Notes: a model not told the origin generated them from the sequence alone. A stretch of 64,000 bases of DNA from Halarchaeum nitratireducens (GCF_014647155.1 NZ_BMOQ01000009.1:1-64000), one strand, 5' to 3'. Positions 38,172 to 64,000 are shown, counted from the first letter of the stretch. Numbers and translations: made by a program.

Positions 38172-38603
38172 CTAGTCACTGCCAGACTCAGCTGCCTGAC
38201 CAGTAAACAGGTCCTGGTGCTCATCGCGGATGTACTGGAAGGAGACCGGCGGGCGGAAATTCTTGACCTGCTCCTGCGGGTCGATAGGATTCGATAATCG
38301 GTGGACGTCTGAGACCTCGATCGCGTATCCGGTCTCTGCCCCCTCGAAGTAATCCATGAATCGAGACCGGTCCGTAATACCGGAATCGGGGCCATAGTCG
38401 CGCCAGAGTTCTGCCGGAGTGCCTTCGGCGATCCCGTTCAAAGTGAACGACCCTACGATCTTCTGCACCGGGGCAGATGCGTACATGAAGACCGTATCGA
38501 CCGTGGAGGGATCACTGAAGCGGGTCTTCCGAAACTCGTACCGCTTCTCCTCGCCGAGTATTTTCTCAGCGAATTCGGGTTTAATGGACAGTAAAACGTC
38601 CAT
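38172..38603 (-). CDS. ASCH-domain protein
   Basis: A 143-residue protein beginning MDVLLSIKPEFAEKILGEEK and RYEFRKTRFSDPS, the classical start of ASCH domains (PUA-like folds that bind RNA or modified bases). YASAPVQKIVGSFTLNGI is the central strand pair. Its start lies inside the end of the PIN-GNAT-EVE gene (23-base overlap), so the two are translated together and probably act together. ASCH and EVE domains have been linked to sensing of modified nucleic acids, which would fit a role in defence or toxin control. Confidence 0.75.
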   Translation of the reverse strand: MDVLLSIKPEFAEKILGEEKRYEFRKTRFSDPSTVDTVFMYASAPVQKIVGSFTLNGIAEGTPAELWRDYGPDSGITDRSRFMDYFEGAETGYAIEVSDVHRLSNPIDPQEQVKNFRPPVSFQYIRDEHQDLFTGQAAESGSD

Positions 38604-40104
38604 CTACGCCTCCATTTTCGCGGACGTACTGGTAGCTCGGTTCATCAATCTCTTGAATAGTCTGCGGAGGGCCCGATAAAACATCGCCATTGAGTAGCAC
38701 CTGATAGTGAAGTGGGTTCGCGAGATCGAAGTGCCACTTGAAGAGTATCACCGTCGTGGGTGACTCGACCTGCTCATCGATCTCGTGGTTCGTGAAGACC
38801 GAGCGCTCGCCGACGAGTTCACGAACCTCGCTGGCATCGGTGACCCCGTACTTTACTTGCTCACAGACACCGATGGAAGTGAGCTCCTTGTGGTCGTGGG
38901 TACGGTAGAACAGAAGAACGTCGTTTGCCTCGATCTGACGCGTGTTCGCGTGAGAGAGATACGCCTTCTTGATGGCGTTCCCCTCGGACAAGAGATCGCC
39001 GCTGAACTCGGATAGACGTGGTTGGCGATTCTTGTATGTCGGAAATAGTCGTCCGTGGAACTGAGGTTGAATCGGGACGACAAACTTGCTCACCGATGGT
39101 CCGTCGTAGAAGCTGGGATAGAAGCGCCGATGGACCTCGAACGGATCCGGATCATCGCCAGGCCCAGGAGTAACCCGCTTAACGAAGACCGATTCACCAG
39201 TCGTCGTCTCCGACGCCTTCTGGAAGCCGTATTCCGCGATAAGGTCGACGAGATAGTCGTTCGGCTCCACGTGATGCGTGAGGTAGATCTCCTCCAATTC
39301 GTGCTCTACTGCCTCGCGTATCGCGATGCTCACGAGGAGCTCCCCGATCTTCGATCCCCGGCGATCAGACGCGACCTTGAGAGTACAGATCTTTAGCCGG
39401 TCACGCTTCCCGAGTTCCGGTTCCTCACCGATAACTTCGGCTTCGTTCGGCTTGAGGATGAGGACCGCACCGAGTGCGTCATCGTGACTCCAGTTCACGT
39501 ACGCATCGCGCTCATCGGGGATGCTCTCGAACCAACTTCGGAAGTCGTAGTCGTCCTTCAGCGAATCGAAGATCGGGTCGTCGATATCGAGGTCCCCCAC
39601 CTGCCGCTTCTTGATAGAGGGGGGCCCCTCGTATGCCGGTCGTTCTTCCTTGAACCGACGTCTCGCGTCCTCGATAGAGAGTACATCACTCTCGATCCCG
39701 AGAGACTCAGCCTTGCTGTGGATGCCTTTGTCCTCCGTCACGAGCAGGTCGACACGGCCGTCGAAGACGGTGTAGAGGAGGGCATTATCCACTTCGTCGT
39801 TGAATTGCTCTGCCTCCCGGATGTGCTTGCGGAACTCTGTCGACGACGCGTTCGGATATGACGGGAAACCAAGTTCAGCGTACGTCGCGATTTTGGACTC
39901 CGCCGTCTCCCGGCCCTCGTCGTTCTCGTAGTTCCGGATCTCTTGTTTCGAGAGGGGGTGAACGAGTATCGTGTGCCCCTCGGTCTTCAACAGGTTTTCC
40001 AGTTCCTGTAGCGGTTCCGGGACTCGCCAGTCCCCCTCTCGTTGAATGAATACGTTCGTGTCGATGAGCACATCCATTGGTGGACTCTCGAATAGTTGTC
40101 TCAT
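38581..40104 (-). CDS. PIN-GNAT-EVE three-domain protein
   Basis: A 507-residue fusion. Residues 10-150 are a PIN-type ribonuclease (VLIDTNVFIQRE, SKQEIRNYE, DEVDNALLYTVF, LLVTEDKGI: four acidic positions present). Residues about 185-320 are a GNAT acetyltransferase (ALGAVLILKPNEAEVIGEE, LKICTLKVASDRRGSKIGEL, the R-G-S-K-I-G acetyl-CoA loop). Residues about 335-500 are an EVE/ASCH-like PUA domain (FVVPIQPQFHGRLFPTY, ANDVLLFYRTHDHKELTSIG). The ATG at 40104 agrees with a TATA box at 40118-40128. The following ASCH gene overlaps. The target is unknown; a toxin or abortive-infection effector is plausible. Confidence 0.75.
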   Translation of the reverse strand: MRQLFESPPMDVLIDTNVFIQREGDWRVPEPLQELENLLKTEGHTILVHPLSKQEIRNYENDEGRETAESKIATYAELGFPSYPNASSTEFRKHIREAEQFNDEVDNALLYTVFDGRVDLLVTEDKGIHSKAESLGIESDVLSIEDARRRFKEERPAYEGPPSIKKRQVGDLDIDDPIFDSLKDDYDFRSWFESIPDERDAYVNWSHDDALGAVLILKPNEAEVIGEEPELGKRDRLKICTLKVASDRRGSKIGELLVSIAIREAVEHELEEIYLTHHVEPNDYLVDLIAEYGFQKASETTTGESVFVKRVTPGPGDDPDPFEVHRRFYPSFYDGPSVSKFVVPIQPQFHGRLFPTYKNRQPRLSEFSGDLLSEGNAIKKAYLSHANTRQIEANDVLLFYRTHDHKELTSIGVCEQVKYGVTDASEVRELVGERSVFTNHEIDEQVESPTTVILFKWHFDLANPLHYQVLLNGDVLSGPPQTIQEIDEPSYQYVRENGGVDGRFTVH

Positions 40105-40481: not shown

Positions 40482-40703
40482 ATGACCCGAAAGACCATCG
40501 GGCAGAATACCGGACACTCCGGCCGCGTGAATTTGTCGGGACCTGAACTCGACAAATTCGACGCCGACGTCGGTGACGAGATCAAAGTCGAAATCGCCGA
40601 GTCCAAGGAAATTGCTCGCGCCCTCATCGACAACAGCGACCACGACGAGTTCGTCATCGTGTCCAAACCCACAACCGAAACGGAGTCTGATTCCCATGAG
40701 TAA
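40482..40703 (+). CDS. AbrB-like small protein leading the defence operon
   Basis: A 73-residue protein with a swapped-hairpin AbrB pattern: GRVNLSGPELDKFDADVGDE and IKVEIAESKEIAR. The last 8 bases overlap the ATG of the DUF499 ATPase gene, so it is translated with it. It may act as operon repressor or as a small subunit. The palindromic CTTAGTCTAAG at 40431-40441 lies upstream. Confidence 0.6.
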   Translation: MTRKTIGQNTGHSGRVNLSGPELDKFDADVGDEIKVEIAESKEIARALIDNSDHDEFVIVSKPTTETESDSHE

Positions 40704-43700
40704 CAGCGAATACCCCAACCTCTTCGACGCTTGCACCCCCCGCGACGACGTCCTCGACGGAACACTCCAAGAGGACGAGTTCGCAGCAAGCCTTGCAACC
40801 GTTGCCCACGCTCGCGAGGAAGCTCCCCCAGTCTATCGCGATACCGAGCTCTTCTTCGATATGACGTACCCCACGGATGGGCTCAAGACGCTCCTCAGCA
40901 ATCTCACAGGCCGCTTCCTTGCCAGCGGGGGCTACGACAGCAACGAATACACAAGCAGTATCCTCTGTCTCGACACCCGCTTCGGTGGTGGAAAAACGCA
41001 CGATCTCATCGCGTCCTACCACCTCGCAACTAACCCCACGGCAGCCAACGACCTCGGTCGACACCTCCTCCCGGGCGACGAAGAGTTCGCGACGGCGTAT
41101 CAGGACGCGGCCACAGACGGACTCGACGTCGACACCGCCGTCTTCGTCGGTGGGCACGTCGACGCACAGAATGCCCGTAGTGATCGGACGGATCCCGACG
41201 CGCCGAACACGCGGACGATGTGGGGCGAAATCGCTTATCAACTCTATGGCATCGAGGGCTACGAACTCCTCAAGGGGTACGACCAGGAACGAAACGCACC
41301 TGGACAAAACACACTCAAGGATCTCTTCGACCTCGGCGACGGCCCCGCACTAGTCCTCGTCGACGAAATCGCGGCGTATCTCGAGAGCGCATCCGCCGTT
41401 GAGGTCGGCGGCGCGACGCTCGCAAGCCAAACGCTGAGCTTCATCCTCTCACTCCTCGAAACAGCGTCCGAATCTGACGACGTCACTATCGTCTACTCAA
41501 TCGCCGACACAGCCTTCGAGGACGAAGCCGAGGACGTTCGTGGGCTCATCGACGAACTCAACCAAATCGGCCGCCGCCAGCACAAGACAGTCACACCGAC
41601 CGACGAGAGCGAGGTCGGCCAAGTCCTCCAGCATCGGCTCTTCGAAGAAATCGACCCCGACGACGCAGCGACGACCGCCCAATCCTACTTCCAGCTCTAC
41701 ACAAACAGCGACCGACAATTCCCACAGGAGGCAACGGACGCGAGCTACGTCGATCGACTCGAACGCGAATACCCCTTCCACCCGACTGTCATCGACACGC
41801 TCACGGACAAAATCGACTCTATCCCGAAGTTCCAACGTACGCGTGGCGCACTGAAGCTCCTCGCTCGCGCCGTCTACTACCGCTGGAACAACCAGCCTGA
41901 ACACTACGAGCGCCATTGGCTCCGCCTCTACGACCTCACGCCCGCTGACGACGCACCCAGTGGGAGCATCAACTCGACCCTCCACGAGTCACTCTTCGAG
42001 TTCGTCGACCTCAGCTCGGCTGTCTCCGCCGACATCTACAACGATGACGGGACCGCCCACGCCCAGCTCGAAGATCGGAAATGGACAGAGAAGGGAATCC
42101 CGCCGCTGGGCTCGCATATGACGACGGCCGTGCTCTGGCATAGCCTCGCCTACGGCGAGCAAGCGACGGGGCTCACACGGGCCGAAATGAACGAAACGCT
42201 CGGTCACCCCGATATTCGGTTCGATAACTACGACTCCGCGTTGGACGCGCTCGGTGGAGCGGACATGAGCGTCGCGTGCTACTACCTCTACGACGAGGAG
42301 CGCGTCCGCTTCAAATCCGACCCGAACCTCATTCGGATCATCGACCAGCGCGTCGACAACACGCCCGACGCGCAAGCGCGCTCACGCTTCGAAGCCCGAC
42401 TCGAGAGTGAGACGGGAACCGGCGCGTTCGAGCCTGTACTCTATCCGGAATCTCCAGCTGACCTCCCGGACAAGGCCTCGACGCCGCAGATCGCCGTGAT
42501 GCACATGGATACAGCGCCTGTCACCGAAGAACTCCTTAACGACGAGAGTAACGAGGAGTCCATTCCGGAGAAGGTCCAGTCGCTGTACCAGAAGTCTGCG
42601 TCAAAGCAGGGTGGTGATGTCCAGAGTCGGGTCTACAAGAATTACGTCCTGTTCCTCGCACCGGACGACGAGCGTGTACGGAGTGCCGTCGACGAAGCTC
42701 GGCACCTCGAAGCCATCGAGGCGCTCCTCGATGACTCTCAGCGGACGGCAGACCTCTCAGAGGACCAGATCGAGGAACTTCGCGAGCGTCAGGAGAAGAA
42801 GTATGGCCTGCTCGGGGAACTTGTCCGTGGAGTCTATCGCCATCTCTACTACGTCGACCGCGACGGACTCACGCACATTACAATCAACGCGACCGAGGCG
42901 AACGGCGGCACCTCGCTCGTTAATGCAGTCGAAGAAACCCTCGACGACCGCCTGATTCGGGCTGACGCCGATGCAAAGGGCGTCGCGTTCTTCAAGCAGA
43001 AACTCTGGCAGCGGACGCAGGACTCGATGACGACGCAACAGCTCGTCGAACAGTTCGCCAAGAAGCCAGGACTCCCATACCTCCTGAGTACGAAGCCGCT
43101 GCGCAAGACCGTCGCGAAGATGGTTGACGAGGGCGGCTACACCTACTGGGACGCCGAGACCGAGACCGCTTACTGGGACGGTGACGCCGATGACCACCCC
43201 GAGAACTGGCGGAAGCGCACCCCGTTTGCTGACTCGCCCGATGTTCGCACCTCGATCAAAGACACCGACGTGAAGATCGGGAACGACTACGTCATCTACA
43301 CGGGTATCGAAGCCCTCCTCGACGTACATCACGACTCGATTCGGCCACCGGAAGCGTCCGAGGTCGAGTGCGCCGAGGACGGCTGTACCACGATGGTTGA
43401 GCCCTCCGGCGACGGCCCAGCGTACTGTGAGGAACACCAGAAGCCCCCAGAGAAGGCTCGCTGTCAGAGCTGCGGCGAGGAGTACGACGAGAGTGAACTG
43501 AATGCCCAAGGAATCTGTCCCGACTGCGCGAAGCCCTCGGGCTGGGACACAGCGACAAGCCAGATGGCGGCGTCGCGGGCGTTCAACGAGGTACGAACCC
43601 ATGCACTCTCCAAAGCAACGTCGGATGGCGCACCAGGCGTCTCACAGGTCACCGTCGAAGTGATGGGCGAGGATCGACTCTCAAAGGGCTCGTTCATCGC

Positions 43701-44025
43701 TCAGCGGGATGCCTTCACTGACCGGTCGGACGCGGTCTCAGTCCGAATGAGCTACGACGTGAAGACGTCGACGGGAACGAGCTACAGCGCGAGCTACCAG
43801 GGGAGTCTCGACGACTTCTCGCGCGTGACGAACCAGCCCGACCCGTTCGGCGAGTCGTTCAACGTCACGCTGAAGTTCCGGGTAGACCTCGATGAACCCG
43901 AACCGATAACCGGCGCCGAAGACGACGTGCTCGCAGAACTACAGGCGGGCCTCGGTCAGACCAATATCGACGTGAAAGTTCAAGCCAGAGGACCGGCCGA
44001 AGTACCCTCTGAGGCAACACAATGA
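40696..44025 (+). CDS. DUF499-type defence ATPase
   Basis: A 1109-residue AAA+-like ATPase of the DUF499 (COG1483-like) group. Walker A is DTRFGGGKTHDLI (near residue 98), Walker B PALVLVDEIAAYL (near 220), with FVGGHVDAQN and SIADTAFEDEAEDVRGLIDE between and after. A zinc-ribbon pair (CAEDGCTT, CQSCGEEY...CPDCAKPS) lies near residue 900-955, and a beta-rich end follows. DUF499 ATPases occur with DUF1156 methyltransferases in BREX-like and other anti-phage clusters. The ATG at 40696 overlaps the AbrB-like gene; the stop overlaps the next start by four bases. Confidence 0.82.
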   Translation: MSNSEYPNLFDACTPRDDVLDGTLQEDEFAASLATVAHAREEAPPVYRDTELFFDMTYPTDGLKTLLSNLTGRFLASGGYDSNEYTSSILCLDTRFGGGKTHDLIASYHLATNPTAANDLGRHLLPGDEEFATAYQDAATDGLDVDTAVFVGGHVDAQNARSDRTDPDAPNTRTMWGEIAYQLYGIEGYELLKGYDQERNAPGQNTLKDLFDLGDGPALVLVDEIAAYLESASAVEVGGATLASQTLSFILSLLETASESDDVTIVYSIADTAFEDEAEDVRGLIDELNQIGRRQHKTVTPTDESEVGQVLQHRLFEEIDPDDAATTAQSYFQLYTNSDRQFPQEATDASYVDRLEREYPFHPTVIDTLTDKIDSIPKFQRTRGALKLLARAVYYRWNNQPEHYERHWLRLYDLTPADDAPSGSINSTLHESLFEFVDLSSAVSADIYNDDGTAHAQLEDRKWTEKGIPPLGSHMTTAVLWHSLAYGEQATGLTRAEMNETLGHPDIRFDNYDSALDALGGADMSVACYYLYDEERVRFKSDPNLIRIIDQRVDNTPDAQARSRFEARLESETGTGAFEPVLYPESPADLPDKASTPQIAVMHMDTAPVTEELLNDESNEESIPEKVQSLYQKSASKQGGDVQSRVYKNYVLFLAPDDERVRSAVDEARHLEAIEALLDDSQRTADLSEDQIEELRERQEKKYGLLGELVRGVYRHLYYVDRDGLTHITINATEANGGTSLVNAVEETLDDRLIRADADAKGVAFFKQKLWQRTQDSMTTQQLVEQFAKKPGLPYLLSTKPLRKTVAKMVDEGGYTYWDAETETAYWDGDADDHPENWRKRTPFADSPDVRTSIKDTDVKIGNDYVIYTGIEALLDVHHDSIRPPEASEVECAEDGCTTMVEPSGDGPAYCEEHQKPPEKARCQSCGEEYDESELNAQGICPDCAKPSGWDTATSQMAASRAFNEVRTHALSKATSDGAPGVSQVTVEVMGEDRLSKGSFIAQRDAFTDRSDAVSVRMSYDVKTSTGTSYSASYQGSLDDFSRVTNQPDPFGESFNVTLKFRVDLDEPEPITGAEDDVLAELQAGLGQTNIDVKVQARGPAEVPSEATQ

Positions 44026-44642
44026 AGACGGGACTCGACTCCACGCAAGCCAGCACGGCGACCGAGGACGCGCCAGTGTCCTCCTTCGGGAGTAGCGTCT
44101 ACGGCGGACGGCCGACGTTCGCGATGACGCGTCGCGAAGAGGCGCACGGCGGCGAGGTCACGCTGTACGAACTACTCCCCGAAGAACAGGCAGCCGCGCG
44201 TCGCGACCGACTCGAACGTCGCGGGCGTTCGCTCACCGTCGAGTCCTTCGAGGAGGTCTTCGAAGATTCATCGGCCGTGGAGGCGACGCGCTGGGAGTGG
44301 AAGGGATGGACGGCCGTGAAGATCGCCCGTCTCGACGGCGGACGCTTCCGCTCCCTCTCCCCACTCATCAAGGATACTGTCGACGGCGCGGAACTCGATC
44401 CCACAGCTGTGACCTCTAGTGGGGCGGGCGACCTCTTCCTCCCGGAGACCGTCGGTGTACGTCTGGCACTCGCGTTCCGCGGCATCAAACCGCTCCAGCG
44501 TGTCGACAGGATGCGTGCCCTCTGTCGCGGCATCGCCCGTATGGGTGACGAGGAGTGTTACTACTGGCACGCGAAGTGTCGCGCCCCGTCCAGTCCGAAC
44601 GGCGAAAAAGCCCTGCGAACCCTGCTGACTGACCACCTATGA
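44022..44642 (+). CDS. Small partner protein of the DUF499/DUF1156 system
   Basis: A 206-residue protein of alpha/beta composition: VYGGRPTFAMTRREEAHGGE, VEATRWEWKGWTAVKIARLD and FLPETVGVRLALAFRGIKPL. I do not recognise the family from sequence. Its place between the DUF499 ATPase and the DUF1156 methyltransferase, with four-base overlaps on both sides, corresponds to where DUF3780-type proteins sit in related clusters; that identity is inference only. A conserved YYWHAKC near the end could bind metal or nucleic acid. Confidence 0.6.
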   Translation: MKTGLDSTQASTATEDAPVSSFGSSVYGGRPTFAMTRREEAHGGEVTLYELLPEEQAAARRDRLERRGRSLTVESFEEVFEDSSAVEATRWEWKGWTAVKIARLDGGRFRSLSPLIKDTVDGAELDPTAVTSSGAGDLFLPETVGVRLALAFRGIKPLQRVDRMRALCRGIARMGDEECYYWHAKCRAPSSPNGEKALRTLLTDHL

Positions 44643-53584: not shown

Positions 53585-56500
53585 ATGGCCGATCTTCCGG
53601 ATTACAATTGGCAGTCTATCTACGAGAGTCAACCCGCCACAAATGGCTCAAATCTCGTCAACGAGTTCTATATCCCGGCTCTCGAACGAAGCGTTCGCTA
53701 CGACCGAGTTGCAGGCTACTTCTCTAGCAGTGCCCTCGCCGTTGCGGCTCGCGGCGTCCACGCACTCGTGGAAAATGATGGTGAGATGCGACTTATTGTC
53801 GGTGCAGAACTGTACGAGACTGACCGTCCCGTTCTGGAAGCCCTCTCGGACGAACTCAGCGAGGGCCTCGATGAACTCGACGACGAACGGCTTGACGCCC
53901 AACTCCAACTCCTCGCACAGCTCCTTCGGGAGAACCGCCTTACGATCAAGGTCGCTGTGCCACGGCGTGGCAGTTGGGGCATCTTTCATCCCAAAGTCGG
54001 CATCTTCCACGACAATCAGGGGAGCTCGATTTCCTTCGAGGGGAGCGTCAATGAGACCGCAGGCGGCTGGGAGCGGAACTACGAACGCTTCAAGGTACAT
54101 CGAGAATGGCACGAGGGCCAGCGAGAGTATGTTGAGGGAGACATCAATACGTTCGAGCGACTCTGGACGGACGACCACCTCTACGTCGAAGTCTACGACC
54201 TGCCCAAAGCTATCGAAGAAGAGATCATCGACTGGAAGGCTCCTAATTCTGATACAGGGGTCAATACCGCCCTCCAGATCGCACGTGGCGAGGCCCCTCC
54301 CACAGAGAAGGACAAAGCGAACATCGTTGCAGACGGCTCACTCAGTCCCGGTGGACTCGCGCTCGCCGAAGAGGGCAGCACCATCACACCGTGGCCCCAC
54401 CAGCGCGTCGTCTCTGACACGCTCGTCAACACCTACCCGAACAGCTTCCTCCTCTGTGACGAAGTCGGCCTCGGGAAGACCATCGAGGCAGGGCTCACTC
54501 TCTCTCGGCTTGGCCTCACTGGCGAACTCGAAACGGGCCTTCTCCTAGTCCCAGCAAGCCTCACGATCCAGTGGCAAGAAGAGCTCTGGGAGAAATTCAA
54601 CATCAATGCCTACCGCTTTGACCGTGGGAGCGGGAATCAGTACGCCTTCCACGATGCATTCGGTCGGGAACACGCACCACCATCGGCGGCTGATTTAGAC
54701 CTCGACGCCGATGAGCGTGAGGAAGCATGGGTTGAAAGTCCGATGTGGCGTTTCCTCCACCAACGACAGGCAGAAACCACGACGGACGGGCCAACTATCG
54801 TGATTATGTCGTGGCATACGGCCCGCCTTGACGACCGCTGGGACCAAATCGCCCCTCGCGACAACGGCCAAGTGCGAACACGTAAAGACGTCCCAGCTAG
54901 CGTTCGTGGCCGAGAGTCAGTCGACCGAGAGGGGGTCTGGGACGCAGTCATCATCGACGAGGCACACAACGCCCGCTCCGGGAGTAAGTTCTACACGCTC
55001 CTCGAACGACTCCGTGAACACACTCAGGCGTACTACTTACTGACCGCGACGCCGATGCAATTGCATGCCGGCGAACTCTACGACCTGATGACACTGCTTG
55101 ACCTCCCCGATGGGTGGGACACGAAAGACCAGTTCATCGAGTTCTTCAAAACACGACAGGCGCTCACGCAAGCACTCCACCAGCAACTCGACGGAGAGGC
55201 GCCGTCCGAGGAGTCATGGTCGGCACAAGCCACACTCGACGAACACCGCTATCAGGATCGGCTCCCAACTGAGCGTGCGCTCTCCGACCAAATCTTCGAC
55301 ACTGTCGCCGCCGAGCTCGAGGTCAACGATGAGGAGCAGGCACGAGCGATTGCGAAGCAGCGCGTCCTCGAAGCGTGCAACCTTGCGAAGGATTACGGCG
55401 AACACTACGATGGCTATATTGACCGTTTCGAGGCCGCAGTTCGGGAGTACGATGTCGATCCGTTCGAGGCGAACGAGGAGGAGAAGCTCAAATACCTGCT
55501 CTATCCGGATTGGAAAGCTGAGGAAGAGTGGCTCACGTACTCGCGGAATGACCGGCTCAGTGCGCTCGATGATTTCTCCGAGGCTGGTTGGCGCGTCGTC
55601 CAAGATGTTCTCGCAGAATCGACGCCTGTCGACGCGCTCATTCACCGGAACACTCGTGACACACTCCGGAAGTACGAGAAGGTCGGCCTACTCGATGCAA
55701 CGGTTCCCGATCGAGATCCAGAGCAGCGGCAGATCGAACTCACGGACGAAACACGAGATGTCTACGACCGCATCGACGACTACACGCGGAAGTTCTACAA
55801 GCTCGCCCAGCAGTCCGATGAGGCTGAGACGCGCGCTATTGGGTTCGTGATGACCACGTACCGACAACGCCTCACGAGCAGCGTCTATGCTATCTCACAG
55901 AGTCTCCAGAACCGGCTCGAAACCCTCCGCACCCAACGCACCGTCCTCAAGGGGAAACAGCGTGCCGCCGAGCGCACTCACGCGGACTCCCAGCAGGTCA
56001 TCCTTGAGACGCTCTCCGAGTACGATTTAGAGGATCTTGATACGCTCGATGAACTGGAGGGCGACCTTGAGGACGCAGACCTCTCAGAGGTCATTCCGAA
56101 CGTCACCGACCAAGGGATCAACCTGCTAGAACAGGAAATCGAGGAGCTCGAGTCGTTCGTGAACGACTTGCGGCAGATTGACCACGATCCGAAGATCGGC
56201 CAGCTCATCGACGACCTGGATGAGCTCGATCGAGACGGACACAATCGGGTCATCATCTTCACGCAGTACACGGACACGATGGACTTCATCCGCGAACAGC
56301 TCACGTCCATTCATGGCGCAACCGTCGCAACCTACTCTGGACGCGGCGGTGAGATGTACAACGCAGAAGACGGGACATGGACGACGGTTGGGAAGGAGCG
56401 CGTGAAACGGGAATTTGCAGCGGACGACGGACAGGTTGATATTCTCGTCTGTACGGACTCCGCAAGTGAGGGGTTGAACCTTCAGGAGTGTGGCGCACTT

Positions 56501-57520
56501 ATCAACTATGACCTGCCGTGGAACCCGATGCGTGTCGAACAGCGAATCGGCCGCATCGACCGTATCGGCCAAGAGTTCGACGAGGTCACGATTCTCAACT
56601 ATAGCTACAAGGATACCGTTGAGACAGACATCTACGACCGCCTCGACGACCGTATCGGTCTCTTCGAGAACGTCGTCGGCGAGATGCAGCCCATTCTCTC
56701 AGGTGTGAGTCAGCAGATCCGGGATGCGACACTTAACGCTGACAGTAGTGACCGCCAGCAGGCCGTTGCAGAAGCGGATCGTCAGTTCTCCGAGCAAATT
56801 GAGGACCAAGAAGAGAGCGACAGAGTTGATGTCGGTGAATCACTCGAGTCAGTTGATGGGCTCGTTGCACAGGACGTGATCGACGAAGCGAAACTTGACG
56901 CCTGGCAGTCTTACGCTCATCCCGATATCGTCGACGTCGGTGATACCGAGTACGAGCACCCCGCACCGTATCAAACCCAAAGCCTACAGGCCGTCCTTGT
57001 CGGGAACGAGACCCTTGAGAAGGCAGGCGTCGTGTTCACCCCGCTCAGCGACATCGAAATTGACCTCAACGACGGCGACTACGACGATGAGTTCGCGTTT
57101 GCGGAGAGTACGTATCGGCTTTCAGTTGGAGACTCGTCGATTGATGCGCCAGAGCCCGATGGTGAACAGACGCTCGCACAGGCTGTCGCACCCGGTGAAG
57201 AGGAGGTTGCAGTAACGTTCGACACGGAGTGTGCCAACGAGTTCCCATCGGTGCATCATCTCGCGCCTGGGAATCCGCTGCTCGCCCAGCTCGTCGATGT
57301 CCTTCAACAAGCAAGCGAGGAATCCGAGCGGTTCTCCAAGCAGATACAATCTAGATCAGAGCAGACCGACCATCCCATCGTCTGTGGATGGGGGCGCGAC
57401 GGCGACCTTGGACGGCTCACAAGCGATGGGTCAGTTGCCGAAGATCAATCGATGAGCATCCTCCAGTCGTGGTGTGAAACGTTTCTCAAAAATCGCAAGC
57501 AGGCGATAACCCCCTCGTGA
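53585..57520 (+). CDS. PLD-SNF2 defence helicase/nuclease
   Basis: A 1311-residue fusion. Residues 1-200 are a phospholipase D-like nuclease domain (VAGYFSSSALAVAARGV, FHPKVGIFHDN with HxK, FEGSVNETAGGW). The SNF2-type helicase follows: LLCDEVGLGKTIEAGLTL (motif I, near 292), AVIIDEAHNARSG (II), LLTATPMQLHAGEL (III), and the second RecA lobe with VIIFTQYTDTMDF, VCTDSASEGLNLQECGALIN and VEQRIGRIDRIGQ (VI). The last 250 residues are specific. PLD-helicases of this layout occur in DISARM-like and DUF1156/DUF499 clusters. It would track DNA and could cut it. Confidence 0.85.
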   Translation: MADLPDYNWQSIYESQPATNGSNLVNEFYIPALERSVRYDRVAGYFSSSALAVAARGVHALVENDGEMRLIVGAELYETDRPVLEALSDELSEGLDELDDERLDAQLQLLAQLLRENRLTIKVAVPRRGSWGIFHPKVGIFHDNQGSSISFEGSVNETAGGWERNYERFKVHREWHEGQREYVEGDINTFERLWTDDHLYVEVYDLPKAIEEEIIDWKAPNSDTGVNTALQIARGEAPPTEKDKANIVADGSLSPGGLALAEEGSTITPWPHQRVVSDTLVNTYPNSFLLCDEVGLGKTIEAGLTLSRLGLTGELETGLLLVPASLTIQWQEELWEKFNINAYRFDRGSGNQYAFHDAFGREHAPPSAADLDLDADEREEAWVESPMWRFLHQRQAETTTDGPTIVIMSWHTARLDDRWDQIAPRDNGQVRTRKDVPASVRGRESVDREGVWDAVIIDEAHNARSGSKFYTLLERLREHTQAYYLLTATPMQLHAGELYDLMTLLDLPDGWDTKDQFIEFFKTRQALTQALHQQLDGEAPSEESWSAQATLDEHRYQDRLPTERALSDQIFDTVAAELEVNDEEQARAIAKQRVLEACNLAKDYGEHYDGYIDRFEAAVREYDVDPFEANEEEKLKYLLYPDWKAEEEWLTYSRNDRLSALDDFSEAGWRVVQDVLAESTPVDALIHRNTRDTLRKYEKVGLLDATVPDRDPEQRQIELTDETRDVYDRIDDYTRKFYKLAQQSDEAETRAIGFVMTTYRQRLTSSVYAISQSLQNRLETLRTQRTVLKGKQRAAERTHADSQQVILETLSEYDLEDLDTLDELEGDLEDADLSEVIPNVTDQGINLLEQEIEELESFVNDLRQIDHDPKIGQLIDDLDELDRDGHNRVIIFTQYTDTMDFIREQLTSIHGATVATYSGRGGEMYNAEDGTWTTVGKERVKREFAADDGQVDILVCTDSASEGLNLQECGALINYDLPWNPMRVEQRIGRIDRIGQEFDEVTILNYSYKDTVETDIYDRLDDRIGLFENVVGEMQPILSGVSQQIRDATLNADSSDRQQAVAEADRQFSEQIEDQEESDRVDVGESLESVDGLVAQDVIDEAKLDAWQSYAHPDIVDVGDTEYEHPAPYQTQSLQAVLVGNETLEKAGVVFTPLSDIEIDLNDGDYDDEFAFAESTYRLSVGDSSIDAPEPDGEQTLAQAVAPGEEEVAVTFDTECANEFPSVHHLAPGNPLLAQLVDVLQQASEESERFSKQIQSRSEQTDHPIVCGWGRDGDLGRLTSDGSVAEDQSMSILQSWCETFLKNRKQAITPS

Positions 57521-57708: not shown

Positions 57709-60700
57709 ATGCATACGCAGGCAACAGTTACTAATCGAATCTCAGAGCTCTGTCGGGAGGAACACGCCGAGCTCCTCAGCGGACTCAACAACCGAACGGC
57801 TTGGAGTAAAGAAGGCGACCTTGGATACGGCAACCAAGTCGTTTCTGCAGCCCACGATAATCGAACCGTTCTAGAACTGATTCAGAACGCACGGGACGCA
57901 ATTGCTGAGGGTGGCGAAGAGACGGACGGTCGTATCGCAGTCATCGTCGGACCGGAATCCCTTCTAGTCGCGAATTCCGGTGAGCCGTTCCGTCTGGACG
58001 ACGGGGAGGTATTCGAGGCTGTAACCTCGCTTGGACGCTCCGCGAAAGCAAAGGATAGGGGGTCAATCGGTGAGAAGGGAGTCGGATTGAAGTCGATTCT
58101 CCAACTGAGTGAGGCGTTCAGCATCCATTCGAGCGTGGGTGAGGAACAGTTCTCGGCCAAGTTCTCTCGGGCTCAGACCGCAGAGATGGTCCTCGCGATG
58201 TACGGAACGCTGCTCAACGAAGATTCGTTTATCGGTCGCCTCGAGGGTTCGGACGAGCAACGCGAATTAATCGAGAACTGCCGTTCACTTGGCCCTGAGC
58301 AGAGCGCAGTCCCGGACTACATCGACAGCGACGAGCTGATTGACCGGCTACTCGCCGACCGACGCCATAATCCACCGACACCGGCAGAGCTTCTCAGTGA
58401 CCTTCCCCGCCTCTCGCTCTTCCGGTATCCGTTCCTCGGCAGCGACGAGAAATCCGATTCATTCCTTCTCCAGAGACACCTCATCCAAAACCGCAACTCG
58501 GATTCTGCTCCGGGAGAGCGAACGGACGAACGGCTTTCCAACTGGTTGGGCGAACGCCAGGGCGAGTTCTCGACAGTGGTGGAACTCGACTATTTGGATC
58601 ATCAGTGGCGTGACCTCCTTGATCAGATTGACGGCATCCTCGCGGCATCAGACGGGGAAGCGGCTTCGACTTTCCGAGACCACCGCTCATCGGATCCCGT
58701 CGACCGCACAGAGTTCCACGAACGACGCCAGCGGGAGTTCTGGCGGGAATGTACCAATATCTCACCCGAGACGCTGATCCTCCTCGATCAAATTACGGAA
58801 CTAGACCTGATACGAGTGACACGCGACGACTCGGGGACCCTACAAATGGCGGACCGACACCAGGTGACGATACAACCGGGGAGCGCGCAACCCATAGCGG
58901 GCCAACCGAACACCATCCGTCGTTCGGTCAACTATACAGTCCGAGCTGACGATCAGAGCACACGAACTCGTCAATATCGACAGTACACGAGAACGTACGA
59001 GGACCTCGTATCCAACGACGGAGAGGGGGAGCCTGGCAACATCCAGCTCCTGTTCGAGCGTCCCCCTGAATCAATCGCGGACTGGACACCCTCCGCGAAG
59101 CCGCTCTACCTACACTATCCGATAGAGAAGGCGCGGACTCCATTCCCCTTCGTCGTTCACGCGCCGTTCCGCGTCGAGTTCGATAGGCAGTCGCTGGCGG
59201 ACGACGAGCAGAATCGACGCGTCCTCAATCGTCTCCCAGAACTCGTTGCAAGTGCCGCTGCGGATCTCGCAACGTCCGACGAAACACGAGCTAGCGATGC
59301 GCCGTTCAGTTCGTGGATGCCCTGGATCACAATGCCGTTACAAGCTGAATCGGACGTGAATGATGATAACCCAGTGACGAACGGCATACAGGACGTGCTC
59401 AGGCTGCTTCGAGAGACACTAATCGTCCCAGCCGAAGGCGCAAGTCCACAAGCACCAAAGGATACTCTCCTCGATCCCGAACGACTCTACGCATTCGAGG
59501 CGCTTCGCCGGGATGCACCCGAGGCACCGATTCCGTCACGGACCACTGTCGAAGCGGGGAGAAAATGGCGCCAACGCATCTCTGAATCGAACAACGAGAG
59601 CTCAGAAGCGTTTCGGCGGTGTGCGAGCCGGCTGGGGCTCACAGAGATCCTTGAGCGCCTCTTTGACGATGAATCGAGTGGTGAACGGGGCTGTATCGAT
59701 ATTCTCTGTACGTATTGGAGTTCTAATACTGACACTGTATCGTCGTCTGAGTGGGCAGTACCAGTCGAGAACGTAGAGCACGCAACATCGTATTTCGAAG
59801 CTATCTGTTCTATTCTCAGGTCAGCCTCCCCCGGCGAGGAACTCGACCTTGACAACGATTCGGACGTGAAGCGAGCCGCAGAGAAACTCGGGGAAAAGCG
59901 GGTTCCGCTCATACCTGCCGAAGCACACCAAGAGGGGGATGCGGCAGAGTCTCGAGGTGTCACCCATCTTGTTCGTGCTCGGTCACGGCGTGACACACAA
60001 CGCGGCCGGGGAGCGCGTCGAAGCGAACGCATCGTCTTCCGACGGACCGGCAGTGGCCAGAATTCGAAGTCGATCATCTCGGAGCTCCCATCACCGCCGA
60101 CTGCGCTCCCAGTATTCGTCGTTCCGTTTCGAACCGAGTGGATCGGCCCGCTCGAAAGTTTCAATCGAGACTGGGGGACCAGGAATCTGGATAGCCCTGC
60201 GGAGTTCTACCGGCGAGTCGCCGCAGAAGCCGGTGGCTACTCTGGAGATCCGACGGCAGACCCCAGTGTCATCGGCTACCTCAGTGACCTCTACGAAACC
60301 GTTACGCGGGGACAGCTAGCTGAGTGGCTCCACCCACTCCCGCATCGAAATCACCGGTTTGACGATGTTGAAAACACACTTACGGGGGCTTCGACGGACG
60401 ATCTCCCGTCGGACTATGATGACTACCTTGAGCGACGATATACGCAGCAGGTTGAATTACCGATAGACGGAAGCGGTGGTACGGACGAAACGCTCGCAGC
60501 CGAGCAGATCATGTTCGGAACTGAGTGGGTAACGGAATTTGAGGCAGTTGCAGACGTCCTTGAGACAGCCGACTCAGACAAGGATCGGTTTCAAGACGCT
60601 GATTCGTACGACGGATCACGGGCGACCACGTTTCGGCGATGGGCTGCTGTCATAGAGAACGCATCTGGTGCCGCTCCACCGGAGACACCGACGCTAGCGG

Positions 60701-63700
60701 GACCTGATGAGGACTATTGGCAACGAGTATTCGAAGGAGAGACAGGCGACCGCTACCGGGTGCAGCGTCTCGACTTCCTCAGCCACCTCGGAGTGCAAAT
60801 CGGACCCCGAATCGATTGGCGGTGGGTACTCCCGACAAGAGGGGACAACGATCGGGGTGCGGGAACCCTCAGTGTCTCCGAGGCCCAAGCGCTCGCACGG
60901 GGAGAGGTACCGGACGATCATGGCGGTTTCAATGCTCCACGCGAACTCCTAACAGACTACAGGGACGTTATCTGGCGTTCAGATAACCACCCTGCATTCA
61001 CCGCCACACACTCGCCGGGCTGTGGAAGCAACTGGTTGGAATGTAGCGTGGAGAACTGGGCCGCAGACGACTCGAAGGAGGCACTCCTACCGGTTTGGTG
61101 GTACTTTACTGACCTGCCACGGATAACCGACACCGCGGCTCGTGAGCAATACCGAGATGCGATTATGCTTCTCTGGCCGGACCTAATCGATACGGTTTCG
61201 GACGGGGCGTGGCTCTGCAGCAACTGGCATTCGTTTAGCGAGAGTCCAGACAACGCTTCTGTCCCCAGTCTTGGAGTGGTCCAACTAGCTCGCGAGAACA
61301 TCTGGCCGGTCGACAAACAGTTCGAAGATGAGGGCGGTAACGACCGGCACACCGTCGAACGTGGAACCACAGCCTCCGCCGAGAAGCTGATTCTCGATGA
61401 GTCGGAACAAGTCCGAGGCGCGGCTCAATACCTCCCCCGTGTTGATACTGCTGCACTCGAAGAGCGGTTAGCGTACATACCTGGCTCAGAGACAGTCGAC
61501 GTTCGGTCATTCCTCCGAACGCTCGGCATTCGGGAGATTGGTGACCTTACCCCGCCAATGGCAGCTCAACGTCTCGATTGGTTCCTCAAACAGTTCGCCG
61601 TGGACGACACTAGAGTTCCGCCTGGGAATTCCTTCGAGATAGCCGCGGACTGGTCAGCACGAGCGCTCTCCGTTCCGATTGACGCACTGATGCGTCGACT
61701 CGCCTCGGAGCGTGAACTCACAACCCGACTCGATGATCAGTCCGCCATCCGTCGCTGGATTCGGCGCGACCTCTGGCACCTTGGAACTACAGTTCGGGTT
61801 ACAGAAGGACGCACATCGAAGGGACTCCAAATCGGCTCGAACGCCCACTTCACGGCGGACGAGGGATCAACTCCTCGACCTGTCGTGTTCACTCAGCCAC
61901 TCTCATCGTTCTCTCGCGACCGATTGGTACGGGACTCGCGCCCATTCGTAGAACGGCCGGCCGATACGACCGAGGTTGCGTATATTCTGGGGGACGAGGG
62001 GAACAACGACCAGGAAGCTACAGAGGTTACCTTCGGAATCACCGTCGAGAGTGAGCCGCCGACACCACGGCCAGTCCAAGGTGGTGAAGTGGAATCAGGA
62101 ACGGAACGTCTCGATAGTCTCCAGTCAACGCTCCGGCAGCGACAACAGTACCTGCTAGCGGCATACCTAGAGCACGCAGCGGCACCGAACCTCCAAGAAA
62201 AGCACGAGCAACTATCTGCGGTTATTGAGAATCAAATCGCAATCGTCGAGCGGGACGAGGACGATGACACCCAGCGGAACTCGGCACAATGGGAGCCAAC
62301 GGAGGGATATCAGGATTCTACGCCGCATATCGCCCTGTTCGAAGACTCGGTTGAGCGTGTCGATGGTGACGCGATACCACCGTACCTCGCTGCGGATGGC
62401 ATCGTCCAAGTCCTCGAACAGTTCGATCTCGCGGACACCTTCGAGAACGTGCTATTCAAAGACGAATCAGCCTTGGAGACGGAGTATCATGGCGCATTGG
62501 AGGATGTCAGAGCAGAAATCAACGAACTCCGAGAACAACGCCTCAAAGGCGTGTACAACTCCCTCGAAGGCCTCGTATCAACGGTTGCTTCCGATGAATC
62601 ACTGACCCGGATTGACGATCTCGATATCGACGCCCGTGTAACGCTGAATGCGTTACGCGAACTCGAAGCAGGCAAAAGCGCTATTGAGGGGAATACGCTC
62701 CTCGAATCATGGTTCGGAACCCTGACCGGCAGCTGTGGACTCAATGAGGACATCGCGACGAAATGTCTCCGTGCCGCAGCGACAGATGACGATGCAGTAC
62801 GCCATCAGATAATCTATCAGCTCGACCAGAATTCAGAGGTGGTCGATGTTGACGCGCTCGTCGAGACCGGCCACCGGTGGCGTAGCCTTGAGGCATGGCC
62901 GGCGACACAGGCAACGCGCCAAATCGAGTCATATAGCGTGATAATCGCTCGCCTCCGCCGGTTCTGGGAAGGCGTTGGCGAATACGAGGACGCCGGCGAA
63001 TCCACGCTCGAACGCGCAGCGAGCGACGCAAGAGACGTATCTTCGGCTCCGAAGCCAACTCGACGTGTGGCACGGTTCATCCCGCAGCCGGGATCTCTTG
63101 ATCCGGCGGTTCGCAACTGTCGCCTCGGCTCGCTCCCCGTTCTCGAAACGGATCCGTCTCTACTTGAGCAACTCAGTACTGCAGTCTCCGAATGGCTGAA
63201 CTCGGAGTGGACTGACCTGAAAGAGTCCGACATCGTCTACACCGATCCGCAACTCGAAACGCGGATCGAGGCTCTCATCGAGGCGGCAGCTACCCCACGT
63301 AGTGATGATGGAAACGTCGACGATGCGCTCGCCGCGCTCACCGGGTCAGAGCAGGGACAGTCCCCGGGAGACGGACAGACAAGAGGCGATCTTACGACCG
63401 ATTGGATTCACGGCCGAGACGATTCTCTCGACTCGCTCGCATCGCGTGTCTCGGCAGCCGGATCGGTTACAGGTGGTGGGTCACCCAGTATCGGTGACTC
63501 GTCGGGAACGATGTACGGACAACCGAACGTCGAGATCGACGCGAGAGGCCGGGAAGGAGAGTTGATCTGTCTGAATCGTGCCTGGAGCCGATTCCAGCCG
63601 GCACCGTCTCAGGTTCGGTCGTCAATCTTGGACCACCTCAGGACGTGGCGCGGACACGACGCATGGCGTATGAAGTCGGTCGACGAGATTGCTGCATCGT

Positions 63701-64000
63701 GGAACAGCCCTAACCTCGATTCTCAAACGTCTTCCCATCCCGTCGACCTGCTCAAGGCCGAGAGACTGGATGAAACGAGTGAAGCGAAAGCCGCGTTCCA
63801 CGCATTGTTCGACACGTCTGCGGAACGTGGACCGGGATTCGACCTAATAGACCCCTTTGCGGAGATGCCCGAATCGGCGTCTATCGCGTCGTGGTCCCCC
63901 GGTTGGATGTGTCGGGTGGAGTCGAAAGCTGTCGCCGCAGAGCAGATGCGGAGCGGTCGCATCAAGCTCACCGGAAACGAACTCAGAATGTCGTTCCGAG
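57709..64000 (+). CDS. Giant GHKL (sacsin-like) ATPase with DUF3883-like end, partial
   Basis: One frame is open without interruption from the ATG at 57709 to the window edge, giving 2097 codons. Residues about 45-140 are a GHKL ATPase: TVLELIQNARDAIAEGG (N box), LLVANSGEPF (G1), GSIGEKGVGLKSILQLSEAF (G2), as in HSP90, MORC and sacsin. The next 1800 residues are a long helical region without motifs I recognise. Near the edge GREGELICLNRAWS, GPGFDLIDPF and WMCRVESKAVAAEQMRSGRI followed by KLTGNELRM match a DUF3883 domain, whose E-S-K and D resemble PD-(D/E)xK nucleases. The stop codon lies to the right of the window, probably within 200 bases. It lies 188 bases after the PLD-SNF2 gene in the same direction. 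Confidence 0.8.
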   Translation, partial: MHTQATVTNRISELCREEHAELLSGLNNRTAWSKEGDLGYGNQVVSAAHDNRTVLELIQNARDAIAEGGEETDGRIAVIVGPESLLVANSGEPFRLDDGEVFEAVTSLGRSAKAKDRGSIGEKGVGLKSILQLSEAFSIHSSVGEEQFSAKFSRAQTAEMVLAMYGTLLNEDSFIGRLEGSDEQRELIENCRSLGPEQSAVPDYIDSDELIDRLLADRRHNPPTPAELLSDLPRLSLFRYPFLGSDEKSDSFLLQRHLIQNRNSDSAPGERTDERLSNWLGERQGEFSTVVELDYLDHQWRDLLDQIDGILAASDGEAASTFRDHRSSDPVDRTEFHERRQREFWRECTNISPETLILLDQITELDLIRVTRDDSGTLQMADRHQVTIQPGSAQPIAGQPNTIRRSVNYTVRADDQSTRTRQYRQYTRTYEDLVSNDGEGEPGNIQLLFERPPESIADWTPSAKPLYLHYPIEKARTPFPFVVHAPFRVEFDRQSLADDEQNRRVLNRLPELVASAAADLATSDETRASDAPFSSWMPWITMPLQAESDVNDDNPVTNGIQDVLRLLRETLIVPAEGASPQAPKDTLLDPERLYAFEALRRDAPEAPIPSRTTVEAGRKWRQRISESNNESSEAFRRCASRLGLTEILERLFDDESSGERGCIDILCTYWSSNTDTVSSSEWAVPVENVEHATSYFEAICSILRSASPGEELDLDNDSDVKRAAEKLGEKRVPLIPAEAHQEGDAAESRGVTHLVRARSRRDTQRGRGARRSERIVFRRTGSGQNSKSIISELPSPPTALPVFVVPFRTEWIGPLESFNRDWGTRNLDSPAEFYRRVAAEAGGYSGDPTADPSVIGYLSDLYETVTRGQLAEWLHPLPHRNHRFDDVENTLTGASTDDLPSDYDDYLERRYTQQVELPIDGSGGTDETLAAEQIMFGTEWVTEFEAVADVLETADSDKDRFQDADSYDGSRATTFRRWAAVIENASGAAPPETPTLAGPDEDYWQRVFEGETGDRYRVQRLDFLSHLGVQIGPRIDWRWVLPTRGDNDRGAGTLSVSEAQALARGEVPDDHGGFNAPRELLTDYRDVIWRSDNHPAFTATHSPGCGSNWLECSVENWAADDSKEALLPVWWYFTDLPRITDTAAREQYRDAIMLLWPDLIDTVSDGAWLCSNWHSFSESPDNASVPSLGVVQLARENIWPVDKQFEDEGGNDRHTVERGTTASAEKLILDESEQVRGAAQYLPRVDTAALEERLAYIPGSETVDVRSFLRTLGIREIGDLTPPMAAQRLDWFLKQFAVDDTRVPPGNSFEIAADWSARALSVPIDALMRRLASERELTTRLDDQSAIRRWIRRDLWHLGTTVRVTEGRTSKGLQIGSNAHFTADEGSTPRPVVFTQPLSSFSRDRLVRDSRPFVERPADTTEVAYILGDEGNNDQEATEVTFGITVESEPPTPRPVQGGEVESGTERLDSLQSTLRQRQQYLLAAYLEHAAAPNLQEKHEQLSAVIENQIAIVERDEDDDTQRNSAQWEPTEGYQDSTPHIALFEDSVERVDGDAIPPYLAADGIVQVLEQFDLADTFENVLFKDESALETEYHGALEDVRAEINELREQRLKGVYNSLEGLVSTVASDESLTRIDDLDIDARVTLNALRELEAGKSAIEGNTLLESWFGTLTGSCGLNEDIATKCLRAAATDDDAVRHQIIYQLDQNSEVVDVDALVETGHRWRSLEAWPATQATRQIESYSVIIARLRRFWEGVGEYEDAGESTLERAASDARDVSSAPKPTRRVARFIPQPGSLDPAVRNCRLGSLPVLETDPSLLEQLSTAVSEWLNSEWTDLKESDIVYTDPQLETRIEALIEAAATPRSDDGNVDDALAALTGSEQGQSPGDGQTRGDLTTDWIHGRDDSLDSLASRVSAAGSVTGGGSPSIGDSSGTMYGQPNVEIDARGREGELICLNRAWSRFQPAPSQVRSSILDHLRTWRGHDAWRMKSVDEIAASWNSPNLDSQTSSHPVDLLKAERLDETSEAKAAFHALFDTSAERGPGFDLIDPFAEMPESASIASWSPGWMCRVESKAVAAEQMRSGRIKLTGNELRMSFR

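Follow-up and report, generated by a model that had tools for sequence, protein, structure and literature searches.

The window analysed here, the first 64,000 nucleotides of Halarchaeum nitratireducens NZ_BMOQ01000009.1 (1-64000; the surrounding contig, C9 of genome G000, has 108,817 bp), ends within a giant gene whose product can be classed from its sequence as a new haloarchaeal member of the known Tiamat (TmtA) family, with a sacsin/Hsp90-type GHKL ATPase at its front and, at its end, a diverged relative of the NOV_C (DUF3883) domain with a predicted PD-(D/E)xK-like nuclease core. The reading that we favour, with moderate confidence, is that of a stand-alone Tiamat-type protein that would carry out ATP-gated cutting of invader nucleic acid.

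The open reading frame (ORF) starts with an ATG at 57709 on the plus strand and is open up to the window end at 64000. An earlier note made from the window alone had reported more than 2090 codons in a single frame, which proved correct: on the contig the ORF gains 77 codons past the window, stops at 64231-64233 and encodes 2174 amino acids, and the frame stays open beyond the completed C-terminal pattern described below, whose key codons all precede 64000 so that the pattern lies almost wholly within the window. The features of the gene, all on the plus strand, are as follows.

57709..64000, continuing to 64230, plus strand: giant TmtA-like protein, 2174 amino acids (ORF on contig C9; PADLOC TmtA PDLC03971, E 2e-142)
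57823..58170, plus strand: sacsin/Hsp90-type GHKL ATPase domain, residues 39-154 (NF047352 over cut-off; motif residues invariant in 35 relatives)
59101..59217, plus strand: conserved motif P-L-YPI...PF..H..V...R, residues 465-503 (H484, V489, R493 and N502 invariant, 35/35)
59386..62973, plus strand: middle region, residues 560-1755, alpha/beta and helical (AlphaFold2, AF2, predicted local distance difference test, pLDDT, 75)
62077..62493, plus strand: weak match to the Hsp90/HtpG/TRAP1 C-terminal dimerisation domain, residues 1457-1595 (VIA Z 3.5 to 2.2)
62974..63528, plus strand: poorly conserved helical/linker region, residues 1756-1940 (lowest conservation in the giant)
63544..64000, domain end 64230, plus strand: NOV_C (DUF3883)-related PD-(D/E)xK-like domain, residues 1946-2174 (hhalign, AF2 topology, nuclease-fold matches, invariance)
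63559-63561 (E1951), 63841-63843 (D2045), 63919-63921 (E2071), 63925-63927 (K2073) and 63976-63978 (N2090), plus strand: key codons of the tail (invariant, 35/35)

The C-terminal tail is a diverged NOV_C relative

The tail carries the motifs RGREGE (E1951), ERGPGFDLID (D2045 and D2048), VESKA (E2071 and K2073) and LTGNEL (N2090), so that the GxxGE...GFDLID...VESKA...LTGNE pattern that the earlier note had seen at the very end is indeed present, and E1951, D2045, E2071, K2073 and N2090 are invariant in all 35 full-length haloarchaeal relatives of our alignment, from which all invariance counts given here are taken. The E-S-K triad proposed in the same note had to be dropped, since its middle residue, Ser2072, is valine in 29 of the 35 giants; the likely catalytic set is E1951/D2045/E2071/K2073.

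The Pfam NOV_C model (PF13020) gave no match at E 10 to the whole giant or to its tail, and by Pfam's own rule the giant is therefore not a NOV_C member; on one relative the model scores E 0.041. Profile-profile comparison with hhalign, however, related the tail to an independent archaeal NOV_C alignment at 93% (E 2.7e-7) with a tail profile of 10 sequences and at 80% (E 1.3e-5) with that of all 35, against 0.05% for the giant's middle as a control, and paired ERGPGFD with GyDI, VESKA with IEVKA and LTGNE with LTxNE. In the NOV_C alignment, which was built from other archaea, E, G, D, E and K are invariant and N nearly so, and since the same columns are invariant in 35/35 giants the tail pattern is far beyond chance. 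The profile-profile match and the shared invariant residues argue that the tail is a NOV_C relative that has diverged beyond Pfam recognition, and the DUF3883-like end that had been proposed thus stands as a relationship, though not as a Pfam assignment. Matches of the tail profiles to PDB sequences (catalases and designed or helical proteins, E 0.01-0.3) involved only a GFDxxDP-like stretch or helices and were rejected as chance.

At the structural level, the AF2 model of the tail (pLDDT 62) shows the order helix(E)-strand(D)-strand(ExK)-strand-helix-strand, and its best matches in the PDB, headed by the SPARDA nuclease subunit (Z 6.0) and followed by Hjc, DpnI, HinP1I and EcoRV, are nearly all PD-(D/E)xK nucleases; this agreement of modest-Z matches on one superfamily is notable. 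Foldseek on the same model returned nothing better than E 0.5. The search for a nuclease core by structure prediction, which the earlier note had advised, points with moderate confidence to an alpha-beta-beta-beta-alpha-beta core with E, D and ExK in place.

Alternatively, the tail could be a degenerate, nucleic-acid-binding or otherwise non-nuclease restriction-endonuclease (REase) fold, and the giant would defend by using ATP to clamp or compact the DNA of the invader. MORC-type GHKL clamps do compact DNA, and related helicases include some whose REase domain is inactive (PMC12839542), but a domain that merely bound nucleic acid would have no need of the E, D, ExK and N that are invariant in 35/35 giants across families, and we consider this explanation quite unlikely.

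The N-terminal ATPase

The sacsin/Hsp90-like type of ATPase suggested earlier is supported by the NCBIfam model NF047352 (sacsin N-terminal ATP-binding domain), which scored 71.9 bits at residues 52-140 and passed its curated cut-off of 50, while Pfam SACS (PF25794) stayed below its gathering cut-off of 32.8 with 21.1 bits on the whole protein and 25.8 on the fragment. A search of PDB sequences with a 35-sequence profile of residues 1-660 gave sacsin, HtpG and TRAP1 as best, weak matches (E 0.06-0.9). The N box (E56-LIQ-N60-ARD), a G1-like box (A88-N89-x-G91) and the G2 box (G121-EK-G124-V-G126), all three of which the note had read from the sequence, are kept in 35/35 relatives, with E56, N60 and D63 of the N box and G121, G124 and G126 of G2 invariant. 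The G1 box differs from what was expected in one respect, position 89 being asparagine in 35/35 haloarchaeal giants as opposed to the aspartate of Hsp90; given that asparagine is also found at this position in several bacterial relatives, it is a family feature rather than decay. By analogy with other GHKL families, residues 465-503 are likely to be the S5/middle domain, with R493 as candidate ATP-sensing arginine.

Tiamat family membership and distribution

The PADLOC Tiamat profile PDLC03971 aligned residues 5-1642 of the giant with positions 11-1306 of its 1782 (E 2e-142), the last part of the profile being outside the best stretch, and a second profile, PDLC03964, is matched end to end, NOV_C included, by haloarchaeal (L147, 1219 bits) and bacterial relatives. 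It is on these two profiles, one matching the giant and the other its relatives end to end, that we place the giant in the Tiamat family; it has the TmtA profile over most of its length, the GHKL boxes and a probably stand-alone gene in defence islands. Relatives from the bacterial genera Sphingobacterium and Hymenobacter, 1583-1686 amino acids long, end in Pfam NOV_C above cut-off (44.7 and 50.5 bits), and we claim no priority for recognising a nuclease-type end in Tiamat. Tiamat is a phage-defence system for which published accounts call the mechanism unknown or poorly understood (PMC12926258, PMC10740426), and among 382 complete archaeal genomes 20 were reported to carry it (PMC13321033).

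A locus search with the single giant protein gave no relatives, while an alignment query did find them, and by tail-profile search the giant gene is present in 38/391 haloarchaeal genomes (~10%), nearly all matches falling within unbroken frames of some 1980-2234 codons. The closest relative lies on a Halorientalis marina plasmid (67% identity over 2171 amino acids). Ratios of non-synonymous to synonymous substitution of 0.04-0.39 in closely related pairs of giants indicate purifying selection in all regions, the tail included. Shorter or broken copies were seen in several haloarchaea (G145, G353, G389, G413, G029, L154, L157, L162 and L163), which suggests frequent loss of the gene. Between the giant of G158 and those of G064 and G409 (L071, L070 and L092), synonymous divergence is low at residues ~200-~1520 and several-fold higher at both ends, most of all at the nuclease end; these could perhaps be mosaic Tiamat genes resulting from end exchange by recombination.

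The middle region

Some 1800 residues had been left without an assigned domain in the earlier note, and this largely stands: the body of ~1200 residues is conserved, yet residues 560-1755 gave no convincing known fold, Foldseek finding nothing below E 2.4. What can be added is a slight indication of an Hsp90-type dimer domain, since in the VIA fold comparison the best match (Z 3.5) was between residues 1457-1595 and HtpG 486-624, with Hsp90s making up much of the match list. As all these Hsp90, HtpG and TRAP1 entries belong to one family, they count as one weak hint and not as many, and searches of residues 1457-1595 by sequence against Pfam and the PDB gave no support; the predicted domain is suggestive only. 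Also in the middle region, His1101, Cys1105 and Cys1170 (61009-61218) are invariant and form a possible metal site.

Genomic neighbourhood

Upstream of the giant gene the window contains the following genes.

40573..44642, plus strand: DUF499 ATPase (HmaC-like), 1150 amino acids, and DUF7680 protein, 206 amino acids
44639..47506, plus strand: DUF1156 N6-methyltransferase (HmaB-like), 955 amino acids
47534..49765, plus strand: superfamily 1 (SF1; IGHMBP2-like) helicase, 743 amino acids
51056..53449, minus strand: protein of 797 amino acids with a PD-(D/E)xK-like C-terminal pattern (occurs with DUF499/DUF1156/Snf2 genes elsewhere)
53585..57520, plus strand: HKD/PLD and Snf2 helicase, 1311 amino acids, ending ~190 bp upstream of the giant (probably not part of the giant's system)

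Together they resemble the DUF499-centred systems (Hma, PMC12839542) and can be described as a DUF499/methylase/HKD-Snf2 BREX-related system, in agreement with the defence neighbourhood that had been anticipated. The island extends further upstream, where a PIN+GNAT protein (38584-40104, minus strand) matches the phage-defence candidate PDC-M11A (2e-159). The 797-residue protein, otherwise unassigned, has a zinc-ribbon-like CxxC pair and a C-terminal ERxGxxGxxExD ... DxKL; two of the four relatives examined (among L189-L193) have DUF499, DUF1156 and Snf2 helicase genes as neighbours, and the remaining two lie close to Snf2 helicases, making it a candidate extra component of such systems.

The giant might itself be a built-in auxiliary nuclease of the neighbouring BREX-related system, given that it follows the HKD-Snf2 gene on the same strand at a distance of ~190 bp, that a few other haloarchaea (L154, L149/G267, G145, G199 and L161) have relatives of DUF1156, DUF499 or HKD-Snf2 close to their giants, and that auxiliary nucleases have been reported beside such systems (PMC12839542). 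However, no such genes occur in the stretches that were read around the two closest relatives (67% and 53% identity), the neighbours of other giants vary (BREX in G064, with BrxC at E 0 and PglZ at 1e-181; a PIWI protein in G203; ParA/Orc1 plasmid genes elsewhere), other DUF499/DUF1156 loci are without a giant, and Tiamat is annotated as a single-gene system. An obligate tie to the operon was therefore rejected, and membership in the BREX-related system is unlikely. With DUF499/DUF1156 genes next to only a few relatives, and no giant at other loci of this kind, the giant is probably a stand-alone system and not a core gene of a DUF499-centred one.

Directly downstream of the giant, just past the window, lies a convergent AddA/AddB-like pair (1294 and 1069 amino acids; contig C9, 64252-71137), and relatives of the AddA-like protein occur near several other giants. 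A non-defence role, for instance as a DNA-repair or chromosome protein, could draw on these AddAB-like genes and on plant NO VEIN, a developmental protein of the same architecture, but is very improbable in view of the patchy presence (~10%), plasmid contexts, TmtA family and defence islands of the giant.

Proposed mechanism

In the reading that we favour, the giant would act as a dimeric ATP-operated clamp, like members of the Hsp90, MutL or MORC families. Its large body may recognise the invader (a DNA structure or a viral component), which would let the ATPase halves close and place the two predicted tail nuclease domains on their nucleic-acid target, probably DNA, although an RNA substrate is also possible; cutting would give the antiviral effect, and ATP hydrolysis would reset the clamp. 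The giant most likely acts alone, even though it shares its island with a BREX-related system. The coupling of ATP-driven clamp closure to DNA cutting, as put forward in the earlier note, is plausible. There is a precedent in paraMORC3, a GHKL+S5 protein with a C-terminal restriction-enzyme-fold domain in restriction-modification (R-M) operons, for which a DNA-looping model was proposed (PMC2292703). DUF3883 was likewise interpreted as an REase domain where it occurs with DUF499 in R-M operons (PMC3710099).

The same architecture could instead serve a sensor of Hsp90-like type that sets off a suicide effector, its body sensing a viral protein or a disturbance of proteostasis and the ATPase switch freeing the NOV_C-like nuclease for indiscriminate cutting of host and viral DNA or RNA (abortive infection). 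Its ATPase is closest to those of the sacsin/Hsp90 chaperones, suicidal action occurs in many defence nucleases, and the genes beside the giant include no conserved methylase or self-marking partner, but a client- or protein-binding domain could not be recognised in it, which leaves this explanation possible but doubtful.

Several points weigh against the ATP-gated clamp nuclease that we favour: its support comes from sequence and predicted structure; Pfam NOV_C is silent on the giant; the confidence of the tail model is modest (pLDDT 62, best Z 6.0, Foldseek E >=0.5); and the Hsp90-type dimer domain derives from the single VIA Z of 3.5.

Comparison with known systems

Like the other Tiamats, bacterial and haloarchaeal, the giant is a single very large protein with a sacsin-type GHKL front and a NOV_C-type end, encoded in defence islands; at 2174 amino acids it is larger than most bacterial members (profiles of ~1060-1780 positions), and its tail has diverged beyond Pfam NOV_C. 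With NOV_C/DUF3883 it shares the order of the E, GxD, ExK and NE motifs, as the hhalign comparison reflects, but its insertions are longer, both in the stretch from the helix to the GFD motif and beyond the NE motif. The ATPase motifs (ELIQNA.DA and the G2 box) and the hint of a dimer domain recall sacsin, Hsp90 and HtpG, from which the giant differs by asparagine in G1, a huge extra body and a nuclease-like end; DnaJ and HEPN were not found in it. The DUF499-centred BREX-related systems (Hma, PMC12839542) form its neighbours, and some of their helicases also end in DUF3883 (PMC3710099), yet they consist of different proteins and are not conserved beside the giant. The E-D-ExK end is shared by paraMORC3 (PMC2292703), which nevertheless belongs to a separate GHKL family in R-M type operons and is likened here by architecture.

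The invariant E-D-ExK end in ~10% of haloarchaea, together with the NOV_C end of bacterial Tiamats, leads to a direct hypothesis for Tiamat, that of an ATP-gated nuclease, which can be tested by single-residue changes. Besides this end, the interest of the giant lies in its possible Hsp90-type dimer domain and in a possible link to plant NO VEIN, a giant developmental factor that appears to combine a GHKL ATPase front with a NOV_C end. These two shared ends may be why Tiamat searches light up plant genomes; Tiamat matches in plant-associated metagenomes were all on plant genome sequences (PMC12409356).

Tentatively, Tiamats could be Hsp90-type machines in full, with ATPase, middle and C-terminal dimer domain, to which a PD-(D/E)xK nuclease has been joined: a chaperone-derived ATP clamp turned antiviral, with plant NO VEIN as a eukaryotic descendant of the Tiamat family. 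If NO VEIN does share both ends, a plant developmental protein would be tied to a family of antiviral proteins.

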